The position numbers were made by a program, and so were the translations under genes. From a virus: a stretch of DNA of 24,846 bases. Positions 2-14,791 of the stretch are shown in pieces. The stretch is taken from the IMG/VR virus record IMGVR_UViG_3300024259_002095, positions 1 through 24,846 of that record; one strand, 5' to 3'. The first letter of the stretch is position 1. Every line of letters begins with the position of its first letter. The notes beneath the pieces were generated by a model. The model ran no database searches. It worked only from the letters and a program-made list of their open reading frames with translations, and was not told the DNA's origin.

Positions 2-493
2 GAAGTAATTTATCCTTATTATAGGTGCCGAGAAGAAACGCCAAACGTTTCAATTATGGCAAACAAGGAAGTGATTTTTGGCATTATGGGCACGAAAATG
101 AATGCAGACCTAAACGTGTCTGACTTGTCAGTGAGGTATGACGAGATTTTTAATAAATATGATTTTTTAATTTTGCCAGGCGGTGTTAAGGCGTTGGAAA
201 AATTACGACAAGATAAAAAAATACTTAGATTTGTTCATGAATGGGATGCTGCCGGAAAAATAATCGCTAGTACATGTCATGGCGCGCAATTATTAATATC
301 CGCGAAGGTTGTAAAGGGAAGAGATATTTCTGGCTATTACAGTCTTGAAGATGACATTACAAACGCAGGTGCTGTTTATTCGCGAGAGCCTGTCGTTATG
401 TCTGACAACATCATTTCATCTCCTCATTATAATTGGATGGGGGAGTGGATGAAGGAGGCGATTGATGCATATTCTAGAAAAGAAAGACTATAA
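2..493 (+). CDS. DJ-1/PfpI family protein (5' end cut by window)
   Basis: The frame is open from the first bases of the window. The stretch upstream of the ATG at 56 reads YPYYRCREETPNVSI, which matches the conserved N-terminal part of PfpI-type proteins, so the ATG at 56 is probably internal and the true start lies outside the window. Visible landmarks are LILPGG (residues 38-43 counted from ATG 56) and the nucleophile elbow STCHGAQLL, with the reactive Cys at codon 275-277. The C-terminal half (DDITNAGA, then a WM..W segment) also follows the PfpI pattern. Family members act as cysteine hydrolases, glyoxalases or chaperone-like stress proteins; the substrate here cannot be told. It overlaps the next gene by 29 bases, so the two are probably translated together. 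Its presence beside sugar-modifying genes is unusual. The family call is secure, the role unknown. Confidence 0.85.
   Translation, partial: EVIYPYYRCREETPNVSIMANKEVIFGIMGTKMNADLNVSDLSVRYDEIFNKYDFLILPGGVKALEKLRQDKKILRFVHEWDAAGKIIASTCHGAQLLISAKVVKGRDISGYYSLEDDITNAGAVYSREPVVMSDNIISSPHYNWMGEWMKEAIDAYSRKERL
452..458 (+). promoter_or_regulatory. Ribosome binding site that fixes the cupin start at 465
   Basis: AAGGAGG lies 6 bases before ATG 465, inside the end of the upstream gene. The TTG at 462 would leave only 3 bases, so ATG 465 is preferred. Confidence 0.75.
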
Positions 494-1157
494 AGATGTT
501 ATTGTCAATAAACCATGGGGACATGAATATTTAGCATATCAAAATGAAAACCTAGGTATTTGGCTGCTTCGAATTGATGATGAAAAACAAACATCAATGC
601 ATTGTCATCCTAAAAAAAATACCGGCCTGATTTGTTTAGACGGAAATGTTCAGGTTTCATTTTTAAAAAATAGTATTACACTCCGTGGTCTCGATAAAAT
701 CATGATTTTTAGAGGTAGATTTCATTCGACCAAAGCTTTGACATCCTCATTTGTTTTGGAAGTGGAATGCCCGCAAGATAAACATGACCTTGTAAGGCTG
801 GAGGATAAATATGGAAGGACACATCTTCCGTATGAGGGAAATAAACATGAGCGAGCAAAGTCAGCAGACTCTTTGTGGTTAGATGATCCTGTCGATGATG
901 CTATAACATCTATAAATTTGTTTAATTGCAACTTTGTGATAAAAAACGTTAAATTAACAGCAGAGTTGCATAATCGCCCGTATGAAGAAGTTTTAGTTGT
1001 CCTTCGAGGTGGCCTTACGACTCCGTCGGGTGATGTTATTATCCAGGCCGGTGATGTAGTTGCTGGTCATACGATGAGTTTTTTGTCGACAAAATTTGGA
1101 ATAATGCCCAATACAACACTACTTTCTATTAACAGGATAAGCTTGGATGAACTTTAA
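465..1157 (+). CDS. Double-cupin protein, sugar-phosphate isomerase/epimerase-like
   Basis: A protein of 230 residues, starting at ATG 465. It has two cupin halves. The N-terminal half begins with NKPWGHEYL, as in mannose-6-phosphate isomerase type II cupins, and has a metal-binding-like HCHPKK (46-51) and a later His (about 87). It is followed by a linker resembling the DLVRLEDKYGR segment common in cupins of surface-sugar clusters. The second half (about 155-225) keeps the beta-barrel pattern (EEVLVVLRGG, AGDVVAGH) but has fewer metal-type His residues. It is probably an isomerase or epimerase, or a binding protein for a sugar phosphate or nucleotide sugar. It overlaps both neighbours, as in a tight operon. 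The exact reaction cannot be assigned. Confidence 0.75.
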   Translation: MHILEKKDYKDVIVNKPWGHEYLAYQNENLGIWLLRIDDEKQTSMHCHPKKNTGLICLDGNVQVSFLKNSITLRGLDKIMIFRGRFHSTKALTSSFVLEVECPQDKHDLVRLEDKYGRTHLPYEGNKHERAKSADSLWLDDPVDDAITSINLFNCNFVIKNVKLTAELHNRPYEEVLVVLRGGLTTPSGDVIIQAGDVVAGHTMSFLSTKFGIMPNTTLLSINRISLDEL

Positions 1158-2538
1158 TATTTTTGAGCATTTCGTATTCGATCTAGACAGAACTTTATGG
1201 GATATTGTCGATCCTACCGGTAGACCAATTTGGGCGAAACAGACACTTCCACCATACCACATTCATAATGTCAACGCGTTAACTGAAAAAACAACTGACA
1301 CAATCATCGATGACGTTGGCAATATTTGTAAGCTTAGAATCGGCGTGCGAGATATGCTAGAATTTCTTCATAGTAATAAAAAAGTTGTTTCATATTTGTC
1401 AGGCGGAGCCGTCCATGGATTACATAACACAAACCAACCGTCAGTTATGTTATTGTCGACATTTGGTCTAACGCATTTATTTAACGGCGATAGAATACTT
1501 TTATATAAAACGCAGAATAAGGCGGAGCATTTTCCGCTAATAGCGAAAACTCAAAAAGCAGTTTTTTTTGATGATGATACAAAATACTTAGCTGAGGTTT
1601 CTGCAATTGGTGTGCCTGTTGTGAATACGGCAATGGTTTTTGATTATACAAACATGTTTGGCAATACAGGATTACCGGCAATAAATAGAAAATTACAAAC
1701 CAAGAAATTGACTAATGAACAAGAATTAAAAATATTTGAACTTGCTGCAACAAGTCGTGCATTCGAAGAATATGCATTTAATCAATTAAAAAATAAAACG
1801 ATTAGTATACCGACGTATTTATCAGCTGGCCAAGAATACATCGCCGCAACACTTTCTGTATTTTTAGATCATCATGGTCCTACAAAAAGGCAGATTTTTA
1901 TTCAACATCGAGGTCATTCGACATATCTTTCATTCGGTGGTGATCCTGAAAAATTAGTCCTAGAATTGCTTGGGCATAAAAATGGGTGCGCCGGAGGTAT
2001 GGGCGGCTCAGCATCTATTCATTCAAAAGAAAAGCAGATATACGGTCATGACGGGCTTATGGGTTCACAAGCCCCTATCGCTACAGGCATGTGTTTTACT
2101 AATAGGATATTTACGCTGTGTTTCGCCGGTGATGCAGCTGCTGAAGAAGATTATTTTTTGGCTTCTTTGGGATGGGCAGCAACGAAAGGGTTACCAATAT
2201 TATTCATTGTTGAAGATAATAATTTTTCAATATTAACTGAGAAAAAAGTACGTCGCAGCTGGGATATTAGTGATATAGCAAAATCATTTGGTCTCCAATC
2301 ATGCAATGTGACAGATGACCCGACCCAACTTTGGGAAACTCTTTCAAAGCTTGATTTATCGAAACCTGCACTTCTAAATGTTAAAACACATAGAAAGTTT
2401 TGGCATGCCGGAGCAGGTATTGATGATCCTACTACATTTGATCGACAAGATCAATTTTTGAAGAAATTTGGTGCTAGCCGGATTACAACTGCAGCACGTT
2501 TTGTAAAGGATGTTTGGGAAAATGCCAAAAACACTTAG
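1147..2538 (+). CDS. HAD phosphatase-like domain fused to a TPP-dependent E1 alpha subunit
   Basis: 463 residues in two domains. Residues 1-175 are HAD-like, closest in pattern to the magnesium-dependent phosphatase MDP-1 or FkbH group: FDLDRTLW gives D12 and D14 (nucleophile and acid/base) and T16, and FFDDD (140-144) is the acidic metal motif. Residues about 190-425 match the E1 alpha subunit of pyruvate/acetoin-type dehydrogenases: HRGHS (254-258), GGMGGS (283-288), the TPP and magnesium motif starting at GD 328-329 and ending at EDNN (356-359), then a C-terminal HAGAG (420-424). No lipoyl or E3-type gene is present, so an ordinary oxidative dehydrogenase complex is unlikely. Beta partner: the next gene, overlapping by at least 17 bases. 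The reaction is unknown. Base composition is AT-rich compared with genes from about 6 kb onward. Confidence 0.88.
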   Translation: MNFNIFEHFVFDLDRTLWDIVDPTGRPIWAKQTLPPYHIHNVNALTEKTTDTIIDDVGNICKLRIGVRDMLEFLHSNKKVVSYLSGGAVHGLHNTNQPSVMLLSTFGLTHLFNGDRILLYKTQNKAEHFPLIAKTQKAVFFDDDTKYLAEVSAIGVPVVNTAMVFDYTNMFGNTGLPAINRKLQTKKLTNEQELKIFELAATSRAFEEYAFNQLKNKTISIPTYLSAGQEYIAATLSVFLDHHGPTKRQIFIQHRGHSTYLSFGGDPEKLVLELLGHKNGCAGGMGGSASIHSKEKQIYGHDGLMGSQAPIATGMCFTNRIFTLCFAGDAAAEEDYFLASLGWAATKGLPILFIVEDNNFSILTEKKVRRSWDISDIAKSFGLQSCNVTDDPTQLWETLSKLDLSKPALLNVKTHRKFWHAGAGIDDPTTFDRQDQFLKKFGASRITTAARFVKDVWENAKNT

Positions 2539-3457
2539 AAATACAATAAAAAACACAGTACAATTACATCTTTTGAACAATGATGGAGTTGCAATGGGCC
2601 AGTGTTTAACGGCTGTAGGCTGGGTAGGCGGTACGTTACCAGAATTATATGAAGAAGACGGTATGGTGGAGCTTCCAATGGCTGACGTCGCCGGCAGTGG
2701 ATTTGTCGTCGGTGCTGCCTTAGCTGGAAAACGGCCAATGTATGTAATTCGATATCAAGGTTTTAACTGGTTTAATGCACCCATTATTATTAATTACGCA
2801 TGCAAATCTAAAGAAATTTGGAATAGACCATGCCCGATGTTCATAAGATCAATAGCCATGGAAGGCGGAATTGGCCCAGTCGCCGGTTCTTCACATCATT
2901 CGTTATACTATCGGATGCCAGGTGTGAAAATATATGCTCCAATGTCATCGTCTGAATACACAGCAACATATAACATGTTTATGGACGACGATGATGTGTA
3001 TTATGTATCTGAACATCGAGGTTCATACGACAACACTGATGATTTGGATGACGTCATTTTTGACAATCCGGATATTATTTTGTTCCCAATATCTATCACG
3101 CGATTCGCTGCAATCGAAGCGTCAAGGCGACTTTTGTGCCTAGGGATTAAGGCGGCCGTAAGTCATATTTGGCAAATCAAACCCTTTGAACCATCACGTG
3201 ATGTATTAAACGATTTATCAGCCGCTGGCCGCGGAGTTGTCATTGATGATGATTATCGCGACGGCATTGCAAAAAATTTGGCTTTCGACATGATGGCAAT
3301 TACACATGCATCAATGAGCGTGCTGGGCCTAGCTGACAAAACTGCAGGATTTCATCCTGCAGTTGACAATTTACCACCGAGTGCCGCTGATATTACAAAA
3401 CATGTTATTGCGACTTTACAGGATAAAAACAATGCTATCGAAAAAAGAATTAATTGA
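2522..3457 (+). CDS. TPP-dependent E1 beta subunit, transketolase-type
   Basis: 311 residues from ATG 2522; an in-frame ATG at 2510 would add MFGK. AAAGGA (2505-2510) is the only ribosome site seen and suits 2522 better, though the spacing is long. Layout: a pyrimidine-binding domain (about 15-170) with RYQGFNWFNAP, a segment typical of E1 beta subunits, and SSHHS, then a C-terminal transketolase domain (about 185-300) with VVIDDDYRDG. At the place where E1 beta subunits carry the Glu that activates thiamine (usually P-x-S/A-E) the protein reads ELPMADVAG, i.e. Asp. It should pair with the preceding HAD-E1 alpha fusion to form an alpha/beta heterodimer or heterotetramer. Substrate unknown; probably carboligation or decarboxylation of a 2-oxo acid. 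Confidence 0.85.
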   Translation: MPKTLRNTIKNTVQLHLLNNDGVAMGQCLTAVGWVGGTLPELYEEDGMVELPMADVAGSGFVVGAALAGKRPMYVIRYQGFNWFNAPIIINYACKSKEIWNRPCPMFIRSIAMEGGIGPVAGSSHHSLYYRMPGVKIYAPMSSSEYTATYNMFMDDDDVYYVSEHRGSYDNTDDLDDVIFDNPDIILFPISITRFAAIEASRRLLCLGIKAAVSHIWQIKPFEPSRDVLNDLSAAGRGVVIDDDYRDGIAKNLAFDMMAITHASMSVLGLADKTAGFHPAVDNLPPSAADITKHVIATLQDKNNAIEKRIN

Positions 3458-4037
3458 ATTTGAGAATAAAGTCGCGGAATCATTTAATGCATCAAATATT
3501 TTAGCACCTATACATCTTCATAATGGAAATGAAGATCAATTACTTGACATTTTTAGTGATGTAAAACATAAAGATTGGATTTTTTCTAGCTGGAGGAGTC
3601 ATTATCATTGTTTATTAAAGGGTGTCGATCCAGCCGATCTTATGCGTGATATTATCGCAGGCCGCTCAATTTCATTGTGTTATTCATCGCACAAGATTAT
3701 GTGCTCTGGAATTGTTGCTGGAACTATACCAATAGCACTAGGCACTGCATTAAATATTAAACTTCGTGAAGGAAGTGAGCATGTTTGGTGTTTTATTGGC
3801 GACATGACAAGTGAAACAGGAATAGCGCATGAATGTATAAAATATGCTACAAACTTTGATCTTCCGATAACATACATTGTTGAAGACAATCAAAAGTCAG
3901 TTTGCACAGACACAAAAAAGGCTTGGGGAATGTACACACCAACGTATGCAAACAGAAATGATAAACATGTACGTTATTATGCATATAATTTAATTAAATA
4001 CCCACATGCCGGCGCCGGCAAGCGAGTCCAGTTTTGA
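3432..4037 (+). CDS. Second TPP-dependent E1 alpha-type subunit (short)
   Basis: 201 residues from ATG 3432, with AGGA about 9 bases upstream. The longer frame from 3363 would lie deep inside the previous gene and its extra residues do not resemble the family. The TPP motif starts at GDMTSE (123-128) and closes at EDNQKS (151-156), with the usual IAHECIKYATNFDLP between. The protein stops just after HAGAG (192-196), the same segment found near the end of the first alpha subunit, so it lacks the C-terminal tail of full E1 alpha proteins (about 320 residues). It is best paired with the next gene as a second alpha/beta enzyme, and resembles split transketolase-like enzymes seen in polysaccharide clusters. 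Substrate unknown. Confidence 0.83.
   Translation: MLSKKELIEFENKVAESFNASNILAPIHLHNGNEDQLLDIFSDVKHKDWIFSSWRSHYHCLLKGVDPADLMRDIIAGRSISLCYSSHKIMCSGIVAGTIPIALGTALNIKLREGSEHVWCFIGDMTSETGIAHECIKYATNFDLPITYIVEDNQKSVCTDTKKAWGMYTPTYANRNDKHVRYYAYNLIKYPHAGAGKRVQF
4007..4020. repeat. 14-base perfect GC palindrome
   Basis: TGCCGGCGCCGGCA reads the same on both strands and stands in an AT-rich stretch, inside the last codons of the short E1 alpha gene (HAGAG segment) and just before the next start. It could form a tight RNA structure or be a protein or methylase target. Part of the bias comes from GCC/GGC codons for Ala and Gly, so it may be accidental. Confidence 0.6.
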
Positions 4038-4582
4038 CTAAATCAATGAAATATCGAGACGAGTTAACACGGGCCATGACGTGGTTGGGTTCGCAGTCCG
4101 ATACGGTTTTTATTGGTCAAGCGGTGGCATCACCAGGAACATCGATGACAGGAACATTAATTGATGTTCCTGATAACAAAAAGATAGAAATGCCGGTGTC
4201 GGAGGAAATGCAAATGGGAATCACAATTGGGATGGCCGTCGATGGTTCAGTTCCTGTTTCGATATATCCAAGGTGGAATTTTTTATTGCTTGCAACAAAC
4301 CAGCTCGTTAATCACTTAGATAAACTGCAGGCTTTTTCTGCGGGCCGTTATGCACCAAAGTGCATCATCAGGGTTGGGATTGGATCGGAACGACCCCTTC
4401 ATCCACAACATCAGCACATCGGTGATTTTACAGACGCGTATCGCATGATGTTAACTAACACAGACATAATAAGACTCGACACACCAGAACAAATTTTTGA
4501 CGCATATAAGACTGCATACGAAAGACAGGACGGCAAATCGACAGTGCTTGTTGAGTGGGGCGACTTCCATAATGAAAAATGA
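4034..4582 (+). CDS. Second TPP-dependent E1 beta-type subunit, pyrimidine-binding domain only
   Basis: 182 residues if it starts at TTG 4034 (overlapping the previous stop as TTGA), or 178 from ATG 4046; no clear ribosome site settles this. The protein is a single transketolase pyrimidine-binding domain. EMPVSEEMQMG contains the Glu expected to activate the thiamine ring, and ISIYPRWNFLLLATNQLVNH-type sequence (about 75-95) is the segment contacting the partner in E1 beta families. The C-terminal transketolase domain present in the first beta subunit is absent. It is arranged directly after the short alpha subunit, so the pair is a minimal split TPP enzyme. Two complete E1 pairs in a row strongly suggest two related reactions or one mixed complex; neither can be named. 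Confidence 0.82.
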   Translation: MTKSMKYRDELTRAMTWLGSQSDTVFIGQAVASPGTSMTGTLIDVPDNKKIEMPVSEEMQMGITIGMAVDGSVPVSIYPRWNFLLLATNQLVNHLDKLQAFSAGRYAPKCIIRVGIGSERPLHPQHQHIGDFTDAYRMMLTNTDIIRLDTPEQIFDAYKTAYERQDGKSTVLVEWGDFHNEK

Positions 4583-5528
4583 AAAACTTCTTGTGATATA
4601 CAATACATGCGGGTTGTCAGGAAAAGAAAACAGTGATTGGTACATAAAAAGTATAGATTCGATACTACGACAAGACGCTAACATTCATTTGGTAATGTCT
4701 AGTTGCTGTAATACGCAGTTGACAAGACAGAAAGTAAAAGGCACATTCGGTGACAGAATATCTTACTGTTTTTTAGATTCTGTTGTTCCGGTTAATATTT
4801 CGTGTAATTTTGCGGCGCTAGAAGCGGTGAGACAACATGGCACAAACTTCGCAGCATATGTTTACATTGATTCCGGAATGAACTTCGCAGATCAGACAGA
4901 TGTATTATCAAAAGGATATAATGAGCTGGTCAAGAATGATTACGGAATCCTGTCAATCCAAGCTTCAAACGATAACGGCTTCGAAGCATGGTTGGGTTTC
5001 AAGGGTTTTGTGACGAATGAAAATCACGTGATTCCAGTTGGCAAAGCTTGTAACAGCCATATTCATATTTTTAGCCAAGCCATATTCGACGGGTTTGACG
5101 GGAGGCTGCAGCCCGACATTTTTGCGGCGTATTGCACAGAATCAACATTCACGTTTTTTGCTGCCTCTGTCGGAAAGCGCTGGGCAATTCTTAAAGATTC
5201 GATTGTTGAACATGACAGGGGAATCGACGGCGCATCGTCGGGATTTAGTCATGTTGGGCTGAGGCAAGACCCATCGAACAACCTGCTTGGGGGCCTAGAC
5301 ATGCGCAAGATACTTTCTAACCCTGAAGCATGGAAATCCGGATTTGGATACGAAGAAATAAATTCTGTATTTTTGCATAATCAGGCTGTGTATGATGACT
5401 CAGGAAAGCATAATGATCCAGAAAGACTCCGGGCGTTCCTTTCCCAAAATATGTTTCTGAGCAAGGAAATTATTGATTATGAAAATATGGCAAACTATTC
5501 ATTTTTTGTGGGAGTTCTAAATGATTGA
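4572..5528 (+). CDS. GT-A fold glycosyltransferase-like protein
   Basis: 318 residues starting at ATG 4572, overlapping the previous stop by 11 bases. A longer in-frame extension to 4497 is rejected as it runs back through the previous gene. The N-terminus (LLVIYNTCGLSG, then DSILRQD) has the strand-helix pattern of family-2 glycosyltransferases, and YIDSGMNF (about 98-105) sits where the metal-binding acidic motif belongs. The C-terminal third has no motif I recognise. It is more distant from the three family-2 enzymes downstream than they are from each other. It probably transfers a sugar from a nucleotide donor; donor and acceptor are unknown. The call rests on fold pattern, not a diagnostic motif. 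Confidence 0.6.
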   Translation: MKNEKLLVIYNTCGLSGKENSDWYIKSIDSILRQDANIHLVMSSCCNTQLTRQKVKGTFGDRISYCFLDSVVPVNISCNFAALEAVRQHGTNFAAYVYIDSGMNFADQTDVLSKGYNELVKNDYGILSIQASNDNGFEAWLGFKGFVTNENHVIPVGKACNSHIHIFSQAIFDGFDGRLQPDIFAAYCTESTFTFFAASVGKRWAILKDSIVEHDRGIDGASSGFSHVGLRQDPSNNLLGGLDMRKILSNPEAWKSGFGYEEINSVFLHNQAVYDDSGKHNDPERLRAFLSQNMFLSKEIIDYENMANYSFFVGVLND

Positions 5529-6336
5529 TGTTTCATTTTTCTTGCCAGGTATCAGGACGCACTTTTGGGAGCAAATGTATAGCACGGCGGTTGCAGCTTG
5601 CGGAAAGTATAGTTTTGAAATTGTAATTGTGAGCCCATTTGATGTGCCTGACAATCTTAAAAACGTTGAGTGCGTCCGGGTCATCAAAGATTTTGGAAAC
5701 CCAACACGATGTGCACAGATTGCCGCTGCCAACACTCGCGGCCGGCTTCTGTATCATACCGTTGACGATGGCTTTTTTTATCCTGGTTCAATTGAATCGG
5801 CTGTTACATTATATGACGCTACATGCTCAAAACTCGACATGATAAACATGCGATATAGGGAAGGCCCGGGTTATAGCGGTGCAGCATTACCGCTCGATTT
5901 TTGGAGAGCATGGTCAAGCGCAGAGTTACAGTTGCCAGGCGTTGGGAAGGGATGGCGCACATCCCTTCATTTCCTTATTGATCGCGAGCGATTTGTTGAA
6001 CTTGGAGGGTTCGATGCACAGTTCGAATATTTGAATCACCCCCTTCATGATTTTGCATTTCGCTTGCAAGCCGCCGGCGGGAAGATTTATCATTCGCCAC
6101 ATGAAGTAATAAACTGCACGCATTATCCGAATGAAACAATTGACCATGGGCCGATTCATAATGCACAAATTTTTCATGATGCTCCAATTTTTCATGAAAT
6201 GTATCAATCGCCGATGGCTGCATTTGATCGTATACCAATTTCATTCGATAATTGGAAACAGTCGCCGCCGAGATGGGAACGCAGGTTCGGTGGTAAAACA
6301 CCAACAACCTACGAAGAAATGCTCAACAACGATTAG
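5521..6336 (+). CDS. Family-2 glycosyltransferase, paralogue 1
   Basis: 271 residues from ATG 5521, with GGGAG about 6 bases upstream and an 8-base overlap with the previous gene. The N-terminal GT-A domain has DFGNPTRCAQ (57-66), a nucleotide-binding segment shared by all three paralogues, and the acidic metal motif in TVDDGFF (80-86). LGGFDAQFEY (about 161-170) is the region usually holding the acceptor base in this family. The C-terminal part carries HNAQIFHDAPIFHEMY and ends with DNWKQ..PRWERRFGG, both with counterparts in paralogues 2 and 3. No membrane segment, so it probably acts in the cytoplasm. Donor and acceptor unknown; the surrounding genes supply candidate nucleotide sugars. Confidence 0.82.
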   Translation: MIDVSFFLPGIRTHFWEQMYSTAVAACGKYSFEIVIVSPFDVPDNLKNVECVRVIKDFGNPTRCAQIAAANTRGRLLYHTVDDGFFYPGSIESAVTLYDATCSKLDMINMRYREGPGYSGAALPLDFWRAWSSAELQLPGVGKGWRTSLHFLIDRERFVELGGFDAQFEYLNHPLHDFAFRLQAAGGKIYHSPHEVINCTHYPNETIDHGPIHNAQIFHDAPIFHEMYQSPMAAFDRIPISFDNWKQSPPRWERRFGGKTPTTYEEMLNND

Positions 6337-6344
6337 AGGGTAAA

Positions 6345-7148
6345 TTGAAAAAGCAAACAGTCGGAATAATAGGATTGGGAACAGTGGGTTTGGCCTGCAA
6401 GTTTGGGTTCGAAAAATTAGGACACACCGTCGTCCATTATGACATAAAAGATGGTTCAAAACTGAAAGATGTCCTAAGTACATCAATTGTTTTCATAAGT
6501 GTCCCAACTGACCAGTTGGAAGATGGCACGTGTGATGTTTCTGTGGTCGAGGATACAATCCAGAGGCTCCGAAAGCACAAGTATGGTGGAATCATTGTCA
6601 TAAAGTCTACGGTTGAACCAGGGACTACCAGCCGCCTTAGAGAAAGGTATGGAATGAACATCTGTTTTGTGCCAGAGTTCCTAAGGGAAAGATGTGCAAC
6701 CTCAGACTTCGTCGAGAATCATTTGCTGTTGGCAATCGGATGTGAAGACAAGAAAACATTCAAGTTCATCAAGAAACTTCATGGAAATTACCCGAAGCAA
6801 ATTGTAAGAATGGGATTGACCGAGGCCGAGATGGTAAAGTACTATTCCAATATCTTCAACGCCATGCGCGTCATATTCGCAAATGAATTTTATGAAACAT
6901 GCCAAGCAGTGGATGCTTCATACAATGATGTAAAAGCGGCGTTCATCAAAATGGGAACCGTTCCAGACCAATACCTCGACGTGAACGAAAACTTTAGAGG
7001 TTACGGAGGCGTTTGCCTTCCAAAAGATGTCAAAGCCATTGTCAGACTACAAGAAAAGCATAATGTCAATGCAGGATTATTTCGGAGTATTGACTATGAA
7101 AATACAAAATACAAAACAACTGTGTTCGGAGAAATGCGACTAAAATGA
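6345..7148 (+). CDS. UDP-glucose/GDP-mannose dehydrogenase family protein, C-terminal domain missing
   Basis: 267 residues from TTG 6345, with AGAGGG 4 bases upstream; no ATG fits better. The NAD-binding Rossmann motif is GIIGLGTVG (7-15). ISVPTD (51-56), KSTVEPGTT (87-95) and VPEFLRE (109-115) follow the family. AEMVKYYSN (161-169) holds the conserved Lys and Asn, and GGVCLPKD (221-228) contains the catalytic Cys224. Full-length enzymes are about 390-450 residues with a third domain that binds the nucleotide; here the protein ends soon after the catalytic Cys. It may need a partner, or may use a different substrate form. Family function is two-step oxidation of a nucleotide hexose to the uronate. 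Within this operon it could feed the neighbouring epimerase. Confidence 0.8.
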   Translation: MKKQTVGIIGLGTVGLACKFGFEKLGHTVVHYDIKDGSKLKDVLSTSIVFISVPTDQLEDGTCDVSVVEDTIQRLRKHKYGGIIVIKSTVEPGTTSRLRERYGMNICFVPEFLRERCATSDFVENHLLLAIGCEDKKTFKFIKKLHGNYPKQIVRMGLTEAEMVKYYSNIFNAMRVIFANEFYETCQAVDASYNDVKAAFIKMGTVPDQYLDVNENFRGYGGVCLPKDVKAIVRLQEKHNVNAGLFRSIDYENTKYKTTVFGEMRLK

Positions 7149-8155
7149 ATATCATGATTACCGGTTCGCAAGGTTTCATTGGAAGTTACCTTTGCAATGA
7201 GCTACTAAAAGCTGGTCACAATGTCATAGGAATTGACAATTACTCAAAATATGGGAAAATTGTTCGGGCACACGATGATCATCCCTGTTTCACATTCTAC
7301 GAAGAGGATGTCATCGGTCTCGAACAACGAGATTTGGCCAGATTTGGCGATGTCGATGTGATTGTCGGCATGGCAGCAATGATTGGCGGCATTTCTTATT
7401 TCCACAAATATGCGTATGACCTGCTGGCAACGAACGAAAGGATTATGGCGTCGATTTTCGACACAGCAATCCACTTGCACAAAACAAAACAGCTCAAGCG
7501 TATCGTGGTTCTGTCAAGCAGCATGGTTTTCGAATCGACTGATGTGTTTCCAACACCCGAAAGTGTAATTGCCACAACTCCACCACCTTTGAGCACTTAC
7601 GGGTTCCAAAAATTGGCTTGCGAGTACTTTTGCAAGGGTGCCAATGAGCAATACAACCTTCCCTACACGATTATTCGGCCATTCAATTGTGTCGGTGTTG
7701 GAGAAGACAAAGCCCTGGGCGAAGAAGTGGTCACAAGTGGCAATGTTGAGATGATGATGAGTCATGTTTTGCCTGATCTAATCAACAAGGTTGTCAAAGG
7801 TCAATATCCGCTACGTTTGCTAGGCCAGGGAAACCAGGTTCGTTGCTACACCAACGGAAAAGACATCGCAAGAGGAATTCGGGTAGCCATTGAGTCACAG
7901 GCTGCCGAAAACGAAGATTTCAACATATCAACGAGACAACCAACAACAGTAAAAGAGCTCGCGACAGTTGTTTGGGAAGAATTGGGCGATCCAAGGCCGC
8001 TACTTTTTGAACATGATGAGCCATTTGACTATGATGTACAGAAGAGGGTCCCAGACGTTCAAAAAGCAACGGATGTATTGGGCTTTACAGCGGACATTTC
8101 GTTGCGAGAATCAGTAAGGGAGGTAATTGAATATGTCAGAACACAAAAAGCCTGA
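7145..8155 (+). CDS. NAD-dependent nucleotide-sugar epimerase/dehydratase (extended SDR)
   Basis: 336 residues; ATG 7145 overlaps the previous stop (ATGA). It starts with the nucleotide-binding motif ITGSQGFIGSYL (5-16), then the catalytic Ser in VLSSSMVFE (122-130) and YxxxK as YGFQK (Y152, K156). RPFNCVGVGE matches the substrate-binding region of UDP-glucose 4-epimerase-like enzymes, and RCYTNGKDIARG corresponds to their R-x-(F/Y)-x-x-x-x-D substrate segment. Length is normal for the family. Direct coupling to the dehydrogenase gene suggests it acts on the same nucleotide sugar (for example epimerisation of a uronate), but this is inference; the sequence alone does not separate epimerase from decarboxylase or dehydratase. 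Confidence 0.83.
   Translation: MNIMITGSQGFIGSYLCNELLKAGHNVIGIDNYSKYGKIVRAHDDHPCFTFYEEDVIGLEQRDLARFGDVDVIVGMAAMIGGISYFHKYAYDLLATNERIMASIFDTAIHLHKTKQLKRIVVLSSSMVFESTDVFPTPESVIATTPPPLSTYGFQKLACEYFCKGANEQYNLPYTIIRPFNCVGVGEDKALGEEVVTSGNVEMMMSHVLPDLINKVVKGQYPLRLLGQGNQVRCYTNGKDIARGIRVAIESQAAENEDFNISTRQPTTVKELATVVWEELGDPRPLLFEHDEPFDYDVQKRVPDVQKATDVLGFTADISLRESVREVIEYVRTQKA
8116..8123 (+). promoter_or_regulatory. Ribosome binding site that fixes the start at 8133
   Basis: AAGGGAGG lies 9 bases before ATG 8133 and only 3 before the alternative TTG 8127, so ATG 8133 is preferred. Confidence 0.7.
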
Positions 8156-8930
8156 ATTATCGGTAATTTTGCCGAGTATCAGACCAGAACGCCTTCCAGG
8201 CTTTTACAAATCGCTATGTGAGTCGACATCGCTTCAGTTTGAGCTAATTGTGGTCGGTCCTAATCCACTTCCGGAAGAATTGCTGCAATATCGAAACATA
8301 AAGTACGTACGAGATTTTGGACACCCAACTCGGGCCCAAAATATTGCACTTCTCGTCGCTGAAGGCGAGATTGTGACATGGCAGGCTGATGATGCAATCA
8401 TGCTGCCTGGTTCTGTCGATGCAAACATGAAAATCCTTCGAGAAATGGGCGGAAATCCACTAAATGTGGTAATTGCAAAATACCAGGAAGGTCAAGTTGG
8501 AAGTGTGGACAGGGATCGGCAACATGACGACTCATATTTCAAGATTGCAGCCGGTCCTGCGGCATCACCGTACCTCCCACCAGATTGGTGGCTCTTCAAC
8601 GTCGCGTTTATGCACCGTTCGTTCTTGGAAGCCCTCGGAGGGTTCAACTCTGAATTCGAAGGGACCTGGTCATCACAAACTGACCTTGCAATCCGTGCCC
8701 AGGCCGCCGGCGCCATCGTAAAGATGTCAGGAATCGCATGCATGATTTGCGACCACATGCCAGGAACAACAGGCGACCACGAACCGATTCATAATTGTCA
8801 AACATTCCACGATGAGCCACTTCTCCACGCGAAATACAGAAATAATGAGTGGCCGAAGAATGAATCGATTGCCGCCGAGATAATGAATTGGAAAAATGTC
8901 GAAACTGTATGGACTCGGAGGTTCAAGTGA
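8133..8930 (+). CDS. Family-2 glycosyltransferase, paralogue 2
   Basis: 265 residues from ATG 8133, overlapping the epimerase gene by 23 bases. GT-A pattern: LSVILPSIRPERL at the N-terminus, RDFGHPTRAQN (60-70) shared with paralogues 1 and 3, and the acidic motif in WQADDAIM (83-90). ALGGFNSEFEG matches the LGG-D/N-F segment of the other copies. The C-terminal part repeats the paralogue signature HNCQTFHDEPLLHAKY and ends with VWTRRFK. The EPIHNCQTFH block is nearly the same as GPIHNAQIFH in paralogue 1, so the two probably share part of their acceptor or donor site. No membrane segment. Donor unknown. Confidence 0.82.
   Translation: MSEHKKPELSVILPSIRPERLPGFYKSLCESTSLQFELIVVGPNPLPEELLQYRNIKYVRDFGHPTRAQNIALLVAEGEIVTWQADDAIMLPGSVDANMKILREMGGNPLNVVIAKYQEGQVGSVDRDRQHDDSYFKIAAGPAASPYLPPDWWLFNVAFMHRSFLEALGGFNSEFEGTWSSQTDLAIRAQAAGAIVKMSGIACMICDHMPGTTGDHEPIHNCQTFHDEPLLHAKYRNNEWPKNESIAAEIMNWKNVETVWTRRFK
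8917..8921 (+). promoter_or_regulatory. Ribosome binding site that selects the GTG start at 8927
   Basis: GGAGG lies 5 bases before GTG 8927. That GTG overlaps the previous stop (GTGA), a typical coupling arrangement. It is far better placed than the TTG at 8888. Confidence 0.7.
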
Positions 8931-9712: not shown

Positions 9713-10287
9713 TGAGTATTTTGAAGAAAAATGGCTGCAAAATCAACGTCGGTTGCGGCGACCGGAAAATGTGGGGCTACACGAACGTGGATATTCGTCC
9801 AGACGTTCAACCCGATGTTGTTTGTGACATTTCAAAGTTATCGACCAAGTTTTCTGATGCGAAAGTGATTTATGCTGCCCATGTTTTGGAACATTTCCCG
9901 TTGAAGGCATCAAAATTTGCCCCGACAACATACAAGGACATTCTTGCCGACTGGTTTGAAGCTTTGGGTAAAGGTGGAACATTGCGTTTGGCCGTTCCAA
10001 ACATGCGTGCTGCGTGTGATCGATACTTGGCAACCGGCAACCTCGCGGAGGTCCAGGCTTTCTTTTTTGGCGGCCAAAAATACGATTTTGACTTTCATTT
10101 TCACGGGTGGGACTTCGATACATTGAAATATGATCTTGAACAGGCCGGATTTAGTGATGTGAAAGGATACGATTGGCGAAAGACTGACCATTTTTATGTG
10201 GACGATTACAGTCAGGCATATTTGCCCCACATGGATAAATCGACCGGGCTGCTTATGTCGTTGAATGTTGAGGCAAAGAAATTATGA
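9712..10287 (+). CDS. Class I SAM-dependent methyltransferase
   Basis: 191 residues from ATG 9712, overlapping the previous stop as TAATG, with CAGGAGA upstream. The longer frame from 9652 has no ribosome site. SAM-binding motif I is INVGCGDRK (11-19), followed by GYTNVDIRP (motif II region, with an acidic residue for the ribose hydroxyls) and ISKLSTKFSDAKVIYAAHVLEHF-type sequence (motif IV region; the A-x-H-V-L-E-H is common in methyltransferase type 11 proteins). KGGTLRLAVPNM is the post-IV strand. Many such proteins sit in polysaccharide clusters and O-methylate sugars. Target here unknown; between a glycosyltransferase and the GDP-sugar genes, a sugar hydroxyl is the natural guess. Confidence 0.78.
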   Translation: MSILKKNGCKINVGCGDRKMWGYTNVDIRPDVQPDVVCDISKLSTKFSDAKVIYAAHVLEHFPLKASKFAPTTYKDILADWFEALGKGGTLRLAVPNMRAACDRYLATGNLAEVQAFFFGGQKYDFDFHFHGWDFDTLKYDLEQAGFSDVKGYDWRKTDHFYVDDYSQAYLPHMDKSTGLLMSLNVEAKKL

Positions 10288-11207
10288 AAAAATTGGTATT
10301 GGTCACAGGCGGTAATGGGTTGGTCGGCAATGCTATCAGAAGGTTAGCTGGCTATCATTCTCAATTTGATGTAATCTTCGCGGCCCGGGAAAATTGGGAT
10401 CTGACAGAGCAAGATGGTGTCAAAGACATGTTTGATTGTTATAAGCCAAATTATGTCATCCATACTGCTGCCCGTGTCGGAGGGATTGCGAAAAACCTTG
10501 AAACGCCAGCGCAGCAATTTTTTGACAATGTCATGATGAACACGATGATCATTGATGAGGCCTACAAGCATGGCGTCGAAAAGTTGATTGCGTTTTCATC
10601 TGTATGTGCCTTTCCTGATGTGGAAACGATGACAGAATCGGTCCTACACGATGGTCCTCCTTTCCCGGCACATGGAGCTTACGCTCATGCCAAGAGAATG
10701 GTTGATGTCCAAATTGAGGCCTACAGGAAGCAATACGGCGTAAACTACTGCTCGATCATCCCAGGAAACATCTTCGGCCCGAATGACAACTTTGACTTTG
10801 CCCATGGGCATGTCGTGCCATCCTTGATTCATAAGGCATACTTGGCAAGAGAAAATGGAACCAGTTTGCAAGCATGGGGCGATGGCTCTCCTCGTCGTGA
10901 ATTTATCTACGTTGATGATTTGGCGGAAGCATGCTTCGAATTGCTAGCGTCGGTGGATGATTTGCCGCAGAAACTGATTGTGTCAGGCGATGAACTGGAA
11001 ATCAGGAAGCTGGTTGAGACGGTGGCAGAATATTTCAATGTTAGTGTTGATTGGGATACGTCAAAGCCGAACGGGCAACTCCGTCGCCAAACGGTAAGTG
11101 AATACTTTGATGATTTGTTCCCAACATTTGTACGGACACCAATCGTTTGGGCAATTGTTAACACTTCAAAATGGTTTGAAGAAAACTTTGAGCATGCGAG
11201 GAAGTAA
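10284..11207 (+). CDS. fcl: GDP-keto-sugar 3,5-epimerase/reductase, GDP-fucose or GDP-colitose synthase type
   Basis: 307 residues; ATG 10284 overlaps the previous stop (ATGA). Extended SDR with VTGGNGLVG (7-15), ARVGGIAKN (63-71), SSVCAFP (105-111), YAHAK (Y133, K137), NIFGPNDNFD (162-171), GHVVPS (175-180), RREFIYVDDLA and KPNGQLRR. These are the hallmarks of GDP-L-fucose synthase, including the Cys (C108) and His (H176) used for epimerisation in the E. coli enzyme. It should take a GDP-4-keto-6-deoxy or 3,6-dideoxy sugar to the L-configured reduced product with NADPH. The ColD-type dehydratase two genes on argues for the GDP-colitose synthase (ColC) role; the sequence alone does not separate the two. 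Family call very secure. Confidence 0.9.
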   Translation: MKKLVLVTGGNGLVGNAIRRLAGYHSQFDVIFAARENWDLTEQDGVKDMFDCYKPNYVIHTAARVGGIAKNLETPAQQFFDNVMMNTMIIDEAYKHGVEKLIAFSSVCAFPDVETMTESVLHDGPPFPAHGAYAHAKRMVDVQIEAYRKQYGVNYCSIIPGNIFGPNDNFDFAHGHVVPSLIHKAYLARENGTSLQAWGDGSPRREFIYVDDLAEACFELLASVDDLPQKLIVSGDELEIRKLVETVAEYFNVSVDWDTSKPNGQLRRQTVSEYFDDLFPTFVRTPIVWAIVNTSKWFEENFEHARK

Positions 11208-12205
11208 TGAAACGCGCACTCGTGACGGGGATCAACGGGCAAGATGGAAGTTATCTTGCCGAATATCTCCTCGAATTGGGGTACAATGTTCATGGTACAC
11301 TCAAACGAAACTCAATCGCAGAAAACCAATCTGCTCGTCTGAACGACGGAACTTACGCAAAAATCAAAGAAAACCTGCAGTTTGCCGATGTGACAGACAT
11401 GGCATCGTTGGTTCGTGTTGTGATGGATGTGAAACCTCATGAGATTTACAATCTGGCGGCTCAAAGTCATGTGAAGGTAAGTTTCGACCAGCCGTTGTAT
11501 ACAATCCAGGCAACTGGTTTGGGCGTGATGAATTTGCTGGAAGCGACGCGACTCTGTTATCCCTCGGCCAAGATTTATCAGGCAAGCAGCTCTGAAATGT
11601 TTGGCAACAACATTGATCCGGATGGATTCCAAAGAGAGACAACACCAATGTCTCCTGTCAGCCCGTACGGTTGTGCAAAACAAATGGCCTACTCATTGAT
11701 GAGGTGCTATAGGGAATCGTACAACATGTTTCTGTCGAACGGTATTCTGTTCAATCATGAGTCACCCCGCCGAGGTGCCAATTTCGTGACGAATAAGGTC
11801 GTCATCGGTGCAGTTCGAATCAAAAAAGGTTTGATGAAAGAGCTCCGTTTAGGAAACCTAGATGCAACACGGGACTGGGGTCATGCCAAAGATTATGTTA
11901 GGGCGATGCATGCGATTTTGCAGTTGGATGAGTGTGACGATTTTGTCATGGCCACCGGTCGTTCAAATTCAGTTAGGCATCTTTGCGAATATGTTTTCAA
12001 TTACCTAGATTTGAATTATAATGACCATGTGGTTGTTGACCCACGGTTCGTGAGACCACTTGAGTTGCACAACCTAAAAGGTGATGCCTCAAAGCTTCTA
12101 GGAAAAATAGGCCCAACAACAAAAACGAACTTTCAATTTGAGTACACATTCGAATCTATGTTGGACGAAATGATTGAATATTGGATGGAGAAAATTGATG
12201 AATAA
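11207..12205 (+). CDS. gmd: GDP-mannose 4,6-dehydratase
   Basis: 332 residues; ATG 11207 shares a base with the previous stop (TAATG). Landmarks: VTGINGQDGSYLAEYLL (6-22), NLAAQSHVKVSF (82-93), SSSEMFG (127-133) with the catalytic Ser/Glu, YGCAK (Y154, K158), FNHESPRRG (182-190) and LGNLDATRDWGHAKDYV (215-231). All are diagnostic for Gmd, which converts GDP-D-mannose to GDP-4-keto-6-deoxy-D-mannose with bound NADP. Length is slightly below the usual 345-375, mainly in loops. It supplies the substrate of both neighbours: the reductase before it and the ColD-type dehydratase after it. Mannose-1-phosphate guanylyltransferase is not in the window, so GDP-mannose must come from the host or from another phage gene. 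Confidence 0.95.
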   Translation: MKRALVTGINGQDGSYLAEYLLELGYNVHGTLKRNSIAENQSARLNDGTYAKIKENLQFADVTDMASLVRVVMDVKPHEIYNLAAQSHVKVSFDQPLYTIQATGLGVMNLLEATRLCYPSAKIYQASSSEMFGNNIDPDGFQRETTPMSPVSPYGCAKQMAYSLMRCYRESYNMFLSNGILFNHESPRRGANFVTNKVVIGAVRIKKGLMKELRLGNLDATRDWGHAKDYVRAMHAILQLDECDDFVMATGRSNSVRHLCEYVFNYLDLNYNDHVVVDPRFVRPLELHNLKGDASKLLGKIGPTTKTNFQFEYTFESMLDEMIEYWMEKIDE

Positions 12206-13364
12206 AATTGAGTACCCACTGGCAAAAGATACGATTAGCGATCACGATATCGATAATCTTATCAATTGGCTGAAAACATATCCTCGCCTGACAAAGGGCG
12301 AACTAACGGTAAAGTTTGAGAAAGCATGGGCGAAATACATCGGTACGAAGTACTCTGTGTTTTGCAACTCCGGCTCTTCTGCAAACCTGCTGATGGCGTA
12401 CGCCGCAAAGGTTGCAAAGCCAAGAAACATGAAGGTCGTCGTCCCATCGGTGGGATGGGTCACAACAATCGCACCATTCATGCAATTTGGTTTCGACCCG
12501 ATCATGGTTGGCGCCGATGCAAAAACGTATGGAATCGATCTCGACGACCTCGAAAAAGTGTGTATCGAAGAGGATCCGGCAACGGTAATTTTTGTGCAGG
12601 TTCTCGGTATCCCGCATGACGCTGAAAGATTGCATGCCCTCTCAAAGAAATACAACTTCACTTTGCTTGAGGACGGCTGCGCAGCTCTCGGTGCTGAATA
12701 TGCAAACGGCAAGAAGGTGGGAACGGTTGGCAAAATGTCGAGCTTCTCATTCTACTTTGGGCATCAGTTGGCGACAATTGAAGGTGGTATGGTGAACACC
12801 GACGATTTCGAAACATACCAAATGTTGCTCATGCTCCGAAGTCACGGCTGGGGAAAGGATCTTGATGAGTCAGTGTACGACGGGTTGGTTGAAGAAAATG
12901 GAGTTGATGACTTCCACAAACCGTTCACATTCTTCGTTCCAGGATTCAACTTGAGGGCGACAGACTTACAGGCATTCATTGGAATCGACCAGGTCAAGAA
13001 AGCACCTTGGGTATCAGAGGCCAGAGAGAGAAATCACAAGCGCTACGCGGAAAACCTACGAGGAACTTTCAAGTTTCAAGATTGGGGAACCAACAAGCCG
13101 GTCTCAATCTCGTTTGGTCTCCTGGCAAAAGACAAGGCACAACGAACGAAAATTGTGAAGATGCTACGGGTTGCCGGCGTCGAAACAAGAATCTTCAGCG
13201 CAGGAAACTTAGGAAAGCACCCATTCTGGAAGGCGGAATACGGTGAGTTTAGTCATCCCGTTTCAGATGAGATTCATGATTGTGGGTTCTTTTTACCCAA
13301 CAATCCAGAGTTAGGTACGGAAGACATCGATAGAATCTGCGACCTTGTCAAGTGTGTGCTATGA
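12198..13364 (+). CDS. colD: GDP-4-keto-6-deoxy-D-mannose 3-dehydratase (ColD type)
   Basis: 388 residues from ATG 12198, with GGAG 7 bases upstream and an 8-base overlap with gmd. The fold is that of DegT/DnrJ/EryC1 PLP enzymes: NSGSSANLL (57-65), LLEDGCAALGAEY (156-168) with the pyridine-binding Asp159, and SFSFYFGHQLATIEGGM (182-198). In sugar aminotransferases the last motif holds a Lys that binds PLP (SFxxxK); here it is His189. That Lys-to-His change is the known signature of ColD, where the His is the base that removes the C3 hydroxyl of GDP-4-keto-6-deoxymannose, giving the 3,6-dideoxy sugar with glutamate as amino donor. E. coli ColD has its active His at 188 and a similar length. 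Perosamine synthase is excluded by the missing Lys. Confidence 0.92.
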   Translation: MNKIEYPLAKDTISDHDIDNLINWLKTYPRLTKGELTVKFEKAWAKYIGTKYSVFCNSGSSANLLMAYAAKVAKPRNMKVVVPSVGWVTTIAPFMQFGFDPIMVGADAKTYGIDLDDLEKVCIEEDPATVIFVQVLGIPHDAERLHALSKKYNFTLLEDGCAALGAEYANGKKVGTVGKMSSFSFYFGHQLATIEGGMVNTDDFETYQMLLMLRSHGWGKDLDESVYDGLVEENGVDDFHKPFTFFVPGFNLRATDLQAFIGIDQVKKAPWVSEARERNHKRYAENLRGTFKFQDWGTNKPVSISFGLLAKDKAQRTKIVKMLRVAGVETRIFSAGNLGKHPFWKAEYGEFSHPVSDEIHDCGFFLPNNPELGTEDIDRICDLVKCVL

Positions 13365-14092
13365 AATTTTTAGTAATTGGTGAATCATGTTTGGACGTCT
13401 TCGTATACGGCAACGTAGTGCGACTCGCCCCGGAGTCGCCAGTTCCTGTTTTCAATAGCATCAAAAGTGTTGAGAACCTTGGGATGGCTTCAAATGTTGC
13501 CGCCAACATGAGAGTTTTGGGTTGCGATACGGAGCTATACACAAATGATAATGCCGAGTGTATCAAGAAGATTCGTTACGTAGAAACGAAATCGAATCAT
13601 ATGTTCCTCAGGGTCGACGAGAACGATGAAAAGTATGGTAACGCCCTGCTTCGAGGTATTGATTTCTCGAAATATGATTGCGTCGTGATATCTGATTATG
13701 ACAAAGGCTGGTTGTCGACGAATCAAATCAACTTCATCGGGCGCAAATCGAAAATCTCAATCCTCGATACAAAAAAGATTCTTGGTGAATGGGCATATTC
13801 AATCTCATTCATCAAAATCAATGAGACGGAGTATGCACGTACAAAATCAGTTCTTGGTGAAGACATCATTGAAAATCTAATCGTGACATTGGGCCCTCGT
13901 GGTGCAATGTATCGAGGAACTGTGTATCCAACGCCAACGGTGAATCGAGTTGATTCTGCTGGTGCTGGTGACTCATTCGTTTCTGCATTCGCAAAGACAT
14001 TTACTGAAACAGGTGATGTTCAGGCTGCTATTGAAAAGGGAAATGAAATTGCATCAATCGTTGTCCAGAAAAAAGGGGTATCAACGATATGA
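13361..14092 (+). CDS. Heptose-7-phosphate kinase-like protein (PfkB family, HldE N-terminal domain)
   Basis: 243 residues from ATG 13361 (ATGA overlap with colD). It keeps the HldE kinase landmarks: GESCLDVFVYG (7-17), RLAPESPVPVF (21-31), GMASNVAANM (41-50), SDYDKG (111-116), KINETE (153-158) and the anion-hole/catalytic segment DSAGAGDSF (198-206, with D204 as the likely base). It should phosphorylate C1 of D-glycero-D-manno-heptose 7-phosphate, a step toward ADP- or GDP-heptose. HldE kinase domains are about 310 residues; this one is shorter, chiefly in the middle between ribokinase motifs. The nucleotidyltransferase half is a separate gene directly downstream. The isomerase GmhA is not in the window. 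Confidence 0.82.
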   Translation: MKFLVIGESCLDVFVYGNVVRLAPESPVPVFNSIKSVENLGMASNVAANMRVLGCDTELYTNDNAECIKKIRYVETKSNHMFLRVDENDEKYGNALLRGIDFSKYDCVVISDYDKGWLSTNQINFIGRKSKISILDTKKILGEWAYSISFIKINETEYARTKSVLGEDIIENLIVTLGPRGAMYRGTVYPTPTVNRVDSAGAGDSFVSAFAKTFTETGDVQAAIEKGNEIASIVVQKKGVSTI

Positions 14093-14487
14093 GCCCAACC
14101 GTCATTTGGACAAATGGATGCTTCGATATTTTGCACGTGGGACATCTTGCAATGTTGGAATACGCAAAAAGCAAAGGCCAATTTCTTGTCGTTGGTGTCG
14201 ATACCGATGAGAGGGTCTCTGAAAACAAGGGACCCCTCCGACCCCACAATGATCTTGTGAACAGGATGAGAATGCTTCGTGCATTGGAATGTGTTGATGT
14301 CGTTGTGTGTTACGGCTCGGATGAAGAAATGTGCCAAGAAATCGAAAACTGGAAAGCCGACAAAATCGTTGTCGGCAGCGAGTATGACGGAAGGCGGGTT
14401 GTTGGCTCACATTTGGCTGAGGTCGACTATTTTCCTAGGATAGGAACGCATTCATCAACGGAGGCAATAAATGCGCTACGTATTTGA
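14089..14487 (+). CDS. rfaE2: Heptose-1-phosphate nucleotidyltransferase-like protein (RfaE2 / HldE C-terminal domain)
   Basis: 132 residues; ATG 14089 overlaps the kinase stop (ATGA), with AAAAGGGG upstream. Cytidylyltransferase-fold protein: VIWTNGCFDILHVGHL (5-20) holds the HxGH nucleotide-binding motif (H16, H19); VVGVDTDERV (34-43), KIVVGSEYD (92-100) and the closing HSSTEAI (121-127) follow RfaE2/HldE. Such enzymes join heptose 1-phosphate to a nucleotide (ADP for LPS core, GDP in capsule or S-layer pathways); the nucleotide cannot be decided from these motifs alone. It forms a split HldE with the previous gene. Confidence 0.85.
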   Translation: MSPTVIWTNGCFDILHVGHLAMLEYAKSKGQFLVVGVDTDERVSENKGPLRPHNDLVNRMRMLRALECVDVVVCYGSDEEMCQEIENWKADKIVVGSEYDGRRVVGSHLAEVDYFPRIGTHSSTEAINALRI

Positions 14488-14791
14488 TCTGGACGGAACA
14501 CTGTGCACGACAACTGACGGTGATTACAATGTAGCGCGTCCACACAGGGACCGAATTGCACGAGTCAATAAGCTGTTTGAATCCGGCCATAGCATTACTA
14601 TCTATACGGCCCGAGGTATGGGCCGCAACAAAGATAACCAAGTAGCTGCAATAACGCAGTTTTATGATTTGACACTGGCTCAACTGTACGACTGGGGAGT
14701 CAAATTTCATGATCTCCGACTAGGAAAACCGAGTGGTGACATATACATTGACGATAAAGGAATGAAAGATGCCGAATTCTTTGCCGATTAA
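14471..14791 (+). CDS. HAD phosphatase, capsule-biosynthesis EcbF/BcbF type
   Basis: 106 residues from ATG 14471, with GGAGG 6 bases upstream; overlaps rfaE2 by 17 bases. Minimal HAD core without a cap: FDLDGTLC (5-12) with nucleophile D6 and acid/base D8, IYTARG (44-49) with the motif II Thr, K86 in GKPSGD, and IYIDDKG (91-97) with the metal-binding Asp pair. Arrangement and length match small phosphatases of capsule and surface-sugar clusters. It sits directly after the heptose kinase and nucleotidyltransferase, so a role as the heptose bisphosphate phosphatase (GmhB step) is possible, but GmhB has a different, zinc-containing sequence; substrate remains open. Confidence 0.8.
   Translation: MRYVFDLDGTLCTTTDGDYNVARPHRDRIARVNKLFESGHSITIYTARGMGRNKDNQVAAITQFYDLTLAQLYDWGVKFHDLRLGKPSGDIYIDDKGMKDAEFFAD

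Follow-up and report, generated by a model that had tools for sequence, protein, structure and literature searches.

What is a pair of dehydrogenase-like enzymes, encoded twice in a row, doing among the sugar genes of a virus? The question arises from a 24,846-base virus contig (IMG/VR record IMGVR_UViG_3300024259_002095; this whole stretch is hereafter called the window), in which T4-like late genes occupy the right part, coding for a late-sigma-like protein and for proteins of the baseplate wedge, and a sugar cluster spans positions 2 to 15,134. Within this cluster, four consecutive plus-strand genes at 1147-4582 encode what a preliminary description had recognized as two split thiamine diphosphate (ThDP) enzymes, each made of an E1alpha chain (A1 or A2) and an E1beta chain (B1 or B2), upstream of a ColD-type dehydratase gene. 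The quartet is real: Pfam matches with E-values from 4.6e-20 to 3.4e-8 and conservation in other genomes rule out chance or mis-called open reading frames, and the GD...EDN motif that had been noted in both alpha genes is indeed present (GDAAAEED...VEDNN in A1 and GDMTSETG...VEDNQ in A2). On the basis of E1-type folds, a pair 2 without C domain, the absence of E2/E3, the association with 4-keto-sugar enzymes and colinear clusters in SAR11 bacteria, we propose that both pairs are probably E1-type ThDP carboligases of nucleotide-sugar metabolism that serve surface glycan branching, and not parts of a 2-oxoacid dehydrogenase.

Two E1-type pairs and the search for E2 and E3

Pair 2 (A2/B2) is minimal in both of its chains. 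A2 extends no further than the E1alpha loop 'PHAGAGKRVQF', so that the E1alpha tail is missing, and B2 consists of the pyrimidine domain, without the transketolase C domain found in complex-forming E1beta chains. AlphaFold (AF2) models of the two chains (pLDDT 92 for A2 and 91 for B2) have their best PDB matches in E1alpha (3exe) and E1beta (6cer, about half of the target covered), respectively, and the region of pyruvate dehydrogenase E1alpha/E1beta that they match is the N-terminal part or half. E1 also ranks first with the family profiles of A2 and B2, while transketolase and DXS score weakly with the A2 profile and not at all with that of B2. A transketolase would have three domains and a transketolase profile as its best match; here the pyruvate dehydrogenase (PDH) E1 profiles score best and pair 2 has no C domain. 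The catalytic Glu of B2 is retained in 120 of 121 homologues, and pair 2 thus combines the ThDP domains of E1alpha and E1beta with the ThDP motif and the catalytic Glu of an E1.

Both chains of pair 2 fall into phrog_34187, a family of unknown function in that resource. Relatives of A2 were found at no fewer than 166 IMG/VR loci (at least) and numbered 153 in a scan of bacterial genomes; in a tree, the window A2 takes a basal position in a group made up mostly of bacterial sequences (89% support). The family includes the 'transketolase central region-containing protein' of cyanophages S-SM2 and P-TIM68, which is likewise encoded in sugar clusters but differs from pair 2 in that a single frame of ~400 residues encodes a fused alpha and beta and that those genomes lack ColD. 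In a plasmid search, the best among the matches listed were merely distant ordinary E1alpha chains of ~30% identity. Literature searches on the phage 'transketolase central region' and on thiamine pyrophosphate auxiliary genes in phage sugar clusters yielded no description of the family, which appears uncharacterized. On a Planctomycetaceae contig (L154), the A2 match lies within a 786-residue open frame and is possibly part of a larger fusion.

Pair 1 (A1/B1) is a subfamily distinct from pair 2, with extra partners: HAD, cupin, DJ-1 and B12-binding radical S-adenosylmethionine (SAM) proteins. A1 is longer than expected because a HAD/MDP-1-like phosphatase domain is fused at residues 1-180, an arrangement that suggests that a phosphorylated compound is handled beside the A1 active site. 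The fusion (1147-1690) occurs only in the window; viral relatives encode the HAD protein as a separate gene in the same module (e.g. L088:4677-5156). The ThDP motifs of A1 are conserved among its relatives. Homology places the start of B1 at ATG 2510 or, more likely, at 2522, and its end at 3457. At 315 residues B1 is close in length to Pau12, the beta chain of an antibiotic-cluster pair discussed below, and a weak remnant of the transketolase C domain was detected in a homologue (L088, PF02780 at 20 bits versus a cut-off of 25.9). By profile pair 1 keeps the E1alpha and E1beta domains, but Asp occupies the position of the catalytic Glu ('MADVA' in 16/16 homologues compared). In a tree, the window B1 clusters with viruses that carry A1/B1 (96-97% support).

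No match to E2 (PF00198), the lipoyl domain (PF00364) or the E3-type Pyr_redox_2 (PF07992) was found in the window record, as the preliminary description had stated. Nor do the homologues always come with E2/E3, the arrangement that it had named as contrary to its proposal. An E2 search was negative in 44 viral records (and positive in 10/14 control genomes), and E2 genes, present in 22 of 23 bacterial genomes, were never near A2. As a positive control, an ordinary E1alpha lay 2 to 7 kb from an E2 in four of those 23 genomes. A classical dehydrogenase complex, in which E2 acyltransferase and E3 are encoded together with E1, is rejected by these searches. In the Bacillus complex (1w85) the binding domain of E2 docks onto the C-terminal domain of E1beta.

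Association with 4-keto-sugar enzymes in bacteria and viruses

Bacterial neighbourhoods were counted in the best 80 of the 153 relatives, which cover Pelagibacteraceae, SAR116, Burkholderiales, Nitrospira, Verrucomicrobia, Bacteroidota and a Spirulina. Cultured carriers of the cluster include Piscinibacter defluvii. The usual next gene encodes a DegT-family protein in which histidine replaces the pyridoxal phosphate (PLP) lysine (SFYYAHHMSTIEGG) and whose closest solved relative in a PDB search is ColD. Such a ColD-type gene is present in 71 of the 80 fetched loci, mostly as the gene immediately downstream of B2 or separated from it by a GHMP kinase gene. Among the nine loci without one nearby, it lies ~10 kb away in the Spirulina, five are cut off by the end of the contig, and three (L111, L122 and L149) have no ColD-type gene within the stretch seen and count as true absences. 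The link between ColD and A2 goes beyond the base rate of DegT proteins, because five of the seven His-type genes parsed in six A2-carrying genomes (next to 16 of Lys type) are neighbours of A2. The window conforms to this pattern, in keeping with the earlier claim of a ColD-type enzyme downstream of the pairs: its DegT-fold protein has the same Lys to His exchange and ColD as its closest solved relative, and is a putative GDP-4-keto-6-deoxymannose 3-dehydratase. Further partners were an HddA-like GHMP kinase (57 loci), a B12 radical SAM protein (54), a nucleotidyltransferase and a short-chain dehydrogenase/reductase (SDR; 48 each), an Fcl-like SDR (30) and a GmhA-like SIS protein (17).

The gene order itself, which the preliminary description had suggested looking for in bacteria and phages, recurs as A1-B1-A2-B2 in seven SAR11 loci. 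The idea that the tandem is unique to the window phage was therefore discarded, and the quartet is regarded as old. Two of these loci (L117 and L135) read DJ-1, cupin, A1, B1, A2, B2, followed by genes for a GHMP kinase, a ColD-type enzyme, RmlC and an SDR; the DJ-1/PfpI gene of the window opens the same conserved six-gene order, and DJ-1 homologues belong to the same module in freshwater viruses (L085-L094). Four others (L124, L132, L133 and L146) lack DJ-1 and cupin, and in these the radical SAM gene is preceded by a gene for a complete YerE-type ThDP enzyme whose closest solved relative is JanthE (8rph); three of these clusters (L124, L133 and L146) unite three ThDP enzymes in one operon. 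In a survey with A2 only, 13 of 118 sampled genomes of the SAR11 family were positive. A hypervariable region of freshwater SAR11 (Fonsibacter) has been reported to hold four 'transketolase' genes, with one or two of the three domains each and a role left open (PMC6811365); matched by description, these are probably the A1-B1-A2-B2 quartet.

Among viruses, we compared 57 non-redundant A2 loci, 54 of them from IMG/VR and the others being the window and the two cyanophages. A separate B2 gene lies nearby in 46, an RmlC-like gene is present in 46 and an Fcl/ColC-like SDR in 43. The 54 IMG/VR loci show two layouts: in one, alpha and beta are adjacent and a ColD-type gene is usually present (15 of 17 adjacent loci); in the other, alpha and beta lie apart, with RmlC present and ColD absent. 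The notion that ColD is required by all family members was dropped in view of these RmlC-type viruses. A ColD-like or an RmlC-like gene is nonetheless found in 52 of the 54. Both enzymes require a 4-keto nucleotide sugar, which is also the acceptor needed by a YerE-like reaction.

For pair 1, a B1 query retrieved ten IMG/VR loci, and an A1 query gave none, its peptide patterns having missed them. All ten carry A1/B1 and DJ-1, several also with T4-like structural genes, and most have a separate HAD gene, a cupin, a B12 radical SAM protein, a GHMP kinase and a ColD-type gene. The B12-binding radical SAM protein (L088:5137-6660, L133:6745-8265, L163:6299-7870), for which the nearest NCBIfam model is HpnJ, below cut-off, often partners both pairs. 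A family of ~470 residues without Pfam match (L025:7260-8696), possibly glycosyltransferases, occurs in 33 of the 57 viral A2 loci, often in several copies.

A proposed branching reaction and its rivals

E1-type pairs without E2/E3 have precedents in sugar branching: AviB1/AviB2, to which the preliminary description had pointed, Pau11/Pau12 and KbDH are known or proposed to act in the branching of antibiotic sugars (PMC4425429, PMC4753412, PMC12247030). With the sugar-branching alpha-KADH2 enzymes (AviB1/AviB2 and KbDH), the window system shares, by gene context, an E1-type pair lacking E2/E3 and a keto-sugar pathway. Pau11/Pau12, which represent such pairs in actinobacterial antibiotic clusters, are described as 325/345 residues long, compared with 201/178 residues in pair 2, where the C domain is missing and the beta chain is not of full length. 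Unlike Pau11/Pau12, pair 2 is found in surface-polysaccharide clusters and phages, beside ColD. PDH and BCKDH E1alpha/E1beta provide the best structural and profile matches of pair 2, which differs from them by the absence of E2/E3, of the E1beta C domain and of the E1alpha tail. The imino acid decarboxylase AzcB/AzcC (9u8q) likewise belongs to the split ThDP enzymes, and one of its chains is short (~165-170 residues) and resembles B2, but the structural match is weaker (TM ~0.65) and it is absent from the profile matches of pair 2; a literature search on AzcB gave nothing relevant, and we know of no sugar context for it. The substrate of YerE is a 4-keto-3,6-dideoxy nucleotide sugar, which an RfbH-type dehydratase provides. 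Like the window system and most of the bacterial loci, YerE and JanthE are accompanied by a ColD/RfbH-type dehydratase gene, but they are single chains of the decarboxylase superfamily (TPP_enzyme_N/M/C; PF02776/PF00205/PF02775), an architecture that the pairs do not share.

From these comparisons we infer donor, acceptor, product, biological use and the role of pair 1 as follows. The Gmd-like 4,6-dehydratase, a possible source of a 4-keto sugar, and the ColD-type enzyme would together yield a 4-keto-3-deoxy nucleotide sugar; other viruses would use an RmlC-type epimerase in place of the ColD-type step. The B2 Glu would activate ThDP, and a 2-oxo acid, most likely pyruvate, would be decarboxylated. 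The resulting acyl carbanion could then attack the 4-keto group, much as in the formation of yersiniose by YerE, and the product would be a C4-branched sugar bearing a tertiary alcohol; an SDR may reduce the new ketone. Pair 1 probably belongs to this pathway too, where its target might be another carbonyl or else an intermediate whose phosphate is removed by the fused HAD domain. With the surrounding glycosyltransferases, the phage would build the sugar into a surface glycan. It has been suggested that such phages modify the O-chains of the host and thereby block rivals (PMC7029224), and such an alteration is a plausible use of the sugar by the window phage. In this form, the branched-sugar proposal of the preliminary description is well supported by gene context where pair 2 is concerned and more tentative for pair 1.

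Several points weigh against this reading. Its support consists of predicted folds and gene neighbourhood. The 80 bacterial loci are not independent events, because the clusters spread horizontally between genomes. About half of the viral loci, those of the RmlC type, have no ColD gene even in records of 100-290 kb, which excludes a phage-made 3-deoxy sugar as the acceptor there. B1 has Asp at the catalytic position, and the YerE-like enzyme of the four SAR11 clusters could itself be the branching enzyme. Finally, partners resembling HddA, GmhA and HldE suggest heptose chemistry, for which ketol transfer would be an alternative; and in view of the heptose-type kinases in many clusters, a heptose derivative may serve as the acceptor instead of GDP-4-keto-3,6-dideoxymannose.

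The strongest competing explanation starts from that last point: the pairs would be transketolase-like ketol transferases that make a phosphorylated heptose or higher-carbon sugar, or rearrange one, for HddA/HldE/GmhA-type activation, a HAD protein removing the phosphate afterwards. The frequency of HddA-like kinases and GmhA-like proteins in the bacterial loci, the HldE halves in the window and the cyanophages, the name 'transketolase' given to the cyanophage proteins in database records and the branching of sugars by transketolases in miharamycin-type pathways (PMC12247030) all agree with it. We nevertheless consider it unlikely: by profile and by structure the pairs resemble PDH/BCKDH E1 much more closely than transketolase, the C domain is missing from pair 2, and an association with ColD would serve nothing in plain heptose synthesis. 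A small acyloin or hydroxy acid made by the pairs might also decorate the sugar as an acyl group, without a branch on the ring. ThDP carboligases readily form acyloins, and acetoin-type E1 is a sequence relative according to the annotation of matches; this explanation seems improbable, however, when an acyltransferase or ligase was not seen as a constant partner and the constant partners act on 4-keto sugars. About equally doubtful is a division of labour in which pair 2 alone is an active carboligase and pair 1 an inactive or regulatory partner, or in which mixed complexes form (A1 with B2). The invariant Asp of the B1 homologues and the adjacency of the pairs in the window and SAR11 speak for it, whereas the conserved motifs of A1 speak against it, as do the viruses L085-L094: these carry A1/B1 without neighbouring A2/B2, mostly beside ColD, GHMP kinase and B12 radical SAM genes, and A1/B1 can therefore work alone. 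That the pairs are E1 components which borrow host E2/E3 to raise the supply of acetyl-CoA or acyl-CoA in infection fits the E1 fold and the E2 genes elsewhere in bacterial carriers, but it deserves very little credence given the E2 searches, the constant sugar-gene context and the lack in pair 2 of the E1beta domain onto which E2 docks.

We thus return to carboligation onto a nucleotide sugar. A bolder version of this proposal, to which we give slightly less than an even chance, is that widespread, minimal, C-domain-less, two-subunit ThDP carboligases in phages, SAR11, Nitrospira, Verrucomicrobia and others make C4-branched nucleotide sugars from ColD- or RmlC-type 4-keto intermediates and, together with the Asp-type ThDP pair and the B12 radical SAM enzyme, surface sugars with several branches, which phages would attach to the host or to themselves. 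Among ThDP sugar-branching enzymes, pair 2 would be unusual in its minimal architecture and phage setting. If the proposal is correct, this would be, to our knowledge, the first phage-encoded carbon-branching sugar pathway; branched sugars would be predicted on the surfaces of some of the most abundant ocean bacteria, and small ThDP enzymes would become available for tertiary alcohol synthesis. It would also provide a function for a large viral and bacterial family labelled unknown (phrog_34187) or 'transketolase fragment' and for the four freshwater SAR11 'transketolases' (PMC6811365), likened by description.

Other genes of the sugar cluster

The coordinates of the genes discussed are collected in the table.

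Table. Genes of the window sugar cluster and the YerE/JanthE-like genes of SAR11 (positions refer to the window unless a locus is given)
Feature	Position	Strand	Evidence and remarks
DJ-1/PfpI-family protein	2..493	+	PF01965 1.7e-27; 5' end lost at record start
Cupin-like protein, mannose-6-phosphate-isomerase type	462..1157	+	no Pfam match of its own; conserved near A1
A1: HAD/MDP-1-like domain (residues 1-180) + E1alpha ThDP subunit (residues 181-463)	1147..2538	+	PF00676 (E1_dh) 4.6e-20; MDP-1 1.3e-7
B1: E1beta of pair 1	2510..3457	+	PF02779 (Transket_pyr) 3.4e-8
A2: minimal E1alpha, 201 residues	ATG 3432..4037	+	PF00676 (E1_dh) 7.9e-15; phrog_34187 2.8e-42
B2: minimal E1beta, 178 residues, pyrimidine domain only	ATG 4046..4582	+	PF02779 (Transket_pyr) 5.9e-9; phrog_34187 6.3e-28
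SDR nucleotide-sugar epimerase/dehydratase	7145..8155	+	PF01370 2.2e-39; family in 43/57 non-redundant viral A2 loci
Fcl/ColC-like SDR	10284..11207	+	GDP-L-fucose synthase model 3.1e-64, below cut-off
Gmd-like GDP-mannose 4,6-dehydratase	11207..12205	+	TIGR01472 4.2e-106, 355 bits versus cut-off 415
ColD-type PLP 3-dehydratase (Lys to His, SFYFGHQLATIEGG)	12174..13364	+	best PDB matches ColD 2gms/3gr9
HldE kinase-domain-like sugar kinase	13352..14092	+	TIGR02198 5.5e-30, below cut-off
HldE nucleotidyltransferase-domain-like protein	14089..14487	+	TIGR02199 3e-28, below cut-off
YerE/JanthE-like single-chain ThDP enzyme	L124:5039-6739, L133:5039-6739, L146:5024-6724		upstream of B12 radical SAM-A1-B1-A2-B2

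A viral homologue of the cupin-like protein (L088) matches PF01050/PF07883 weakly, below cut-off. The kinase and nucleotidyltransferase halves of HldE are encoded by two overlapping genes (13352-14487). A small HAD-like protein and a cupin are encoded next, and cyanophages S-SM2 and P-TIM68 have relatives of all these four proteins. Three related proteins of the cluster (5521-6336, 8127-8930 and 8888-9712), at best weakly GT2-like, are probably paralogous glycosyltransferases. In several viruses of the A1/B1 group, a protein of ~301 residues without Pfam match (L088:8903-9808) is encoded 3' of B1.

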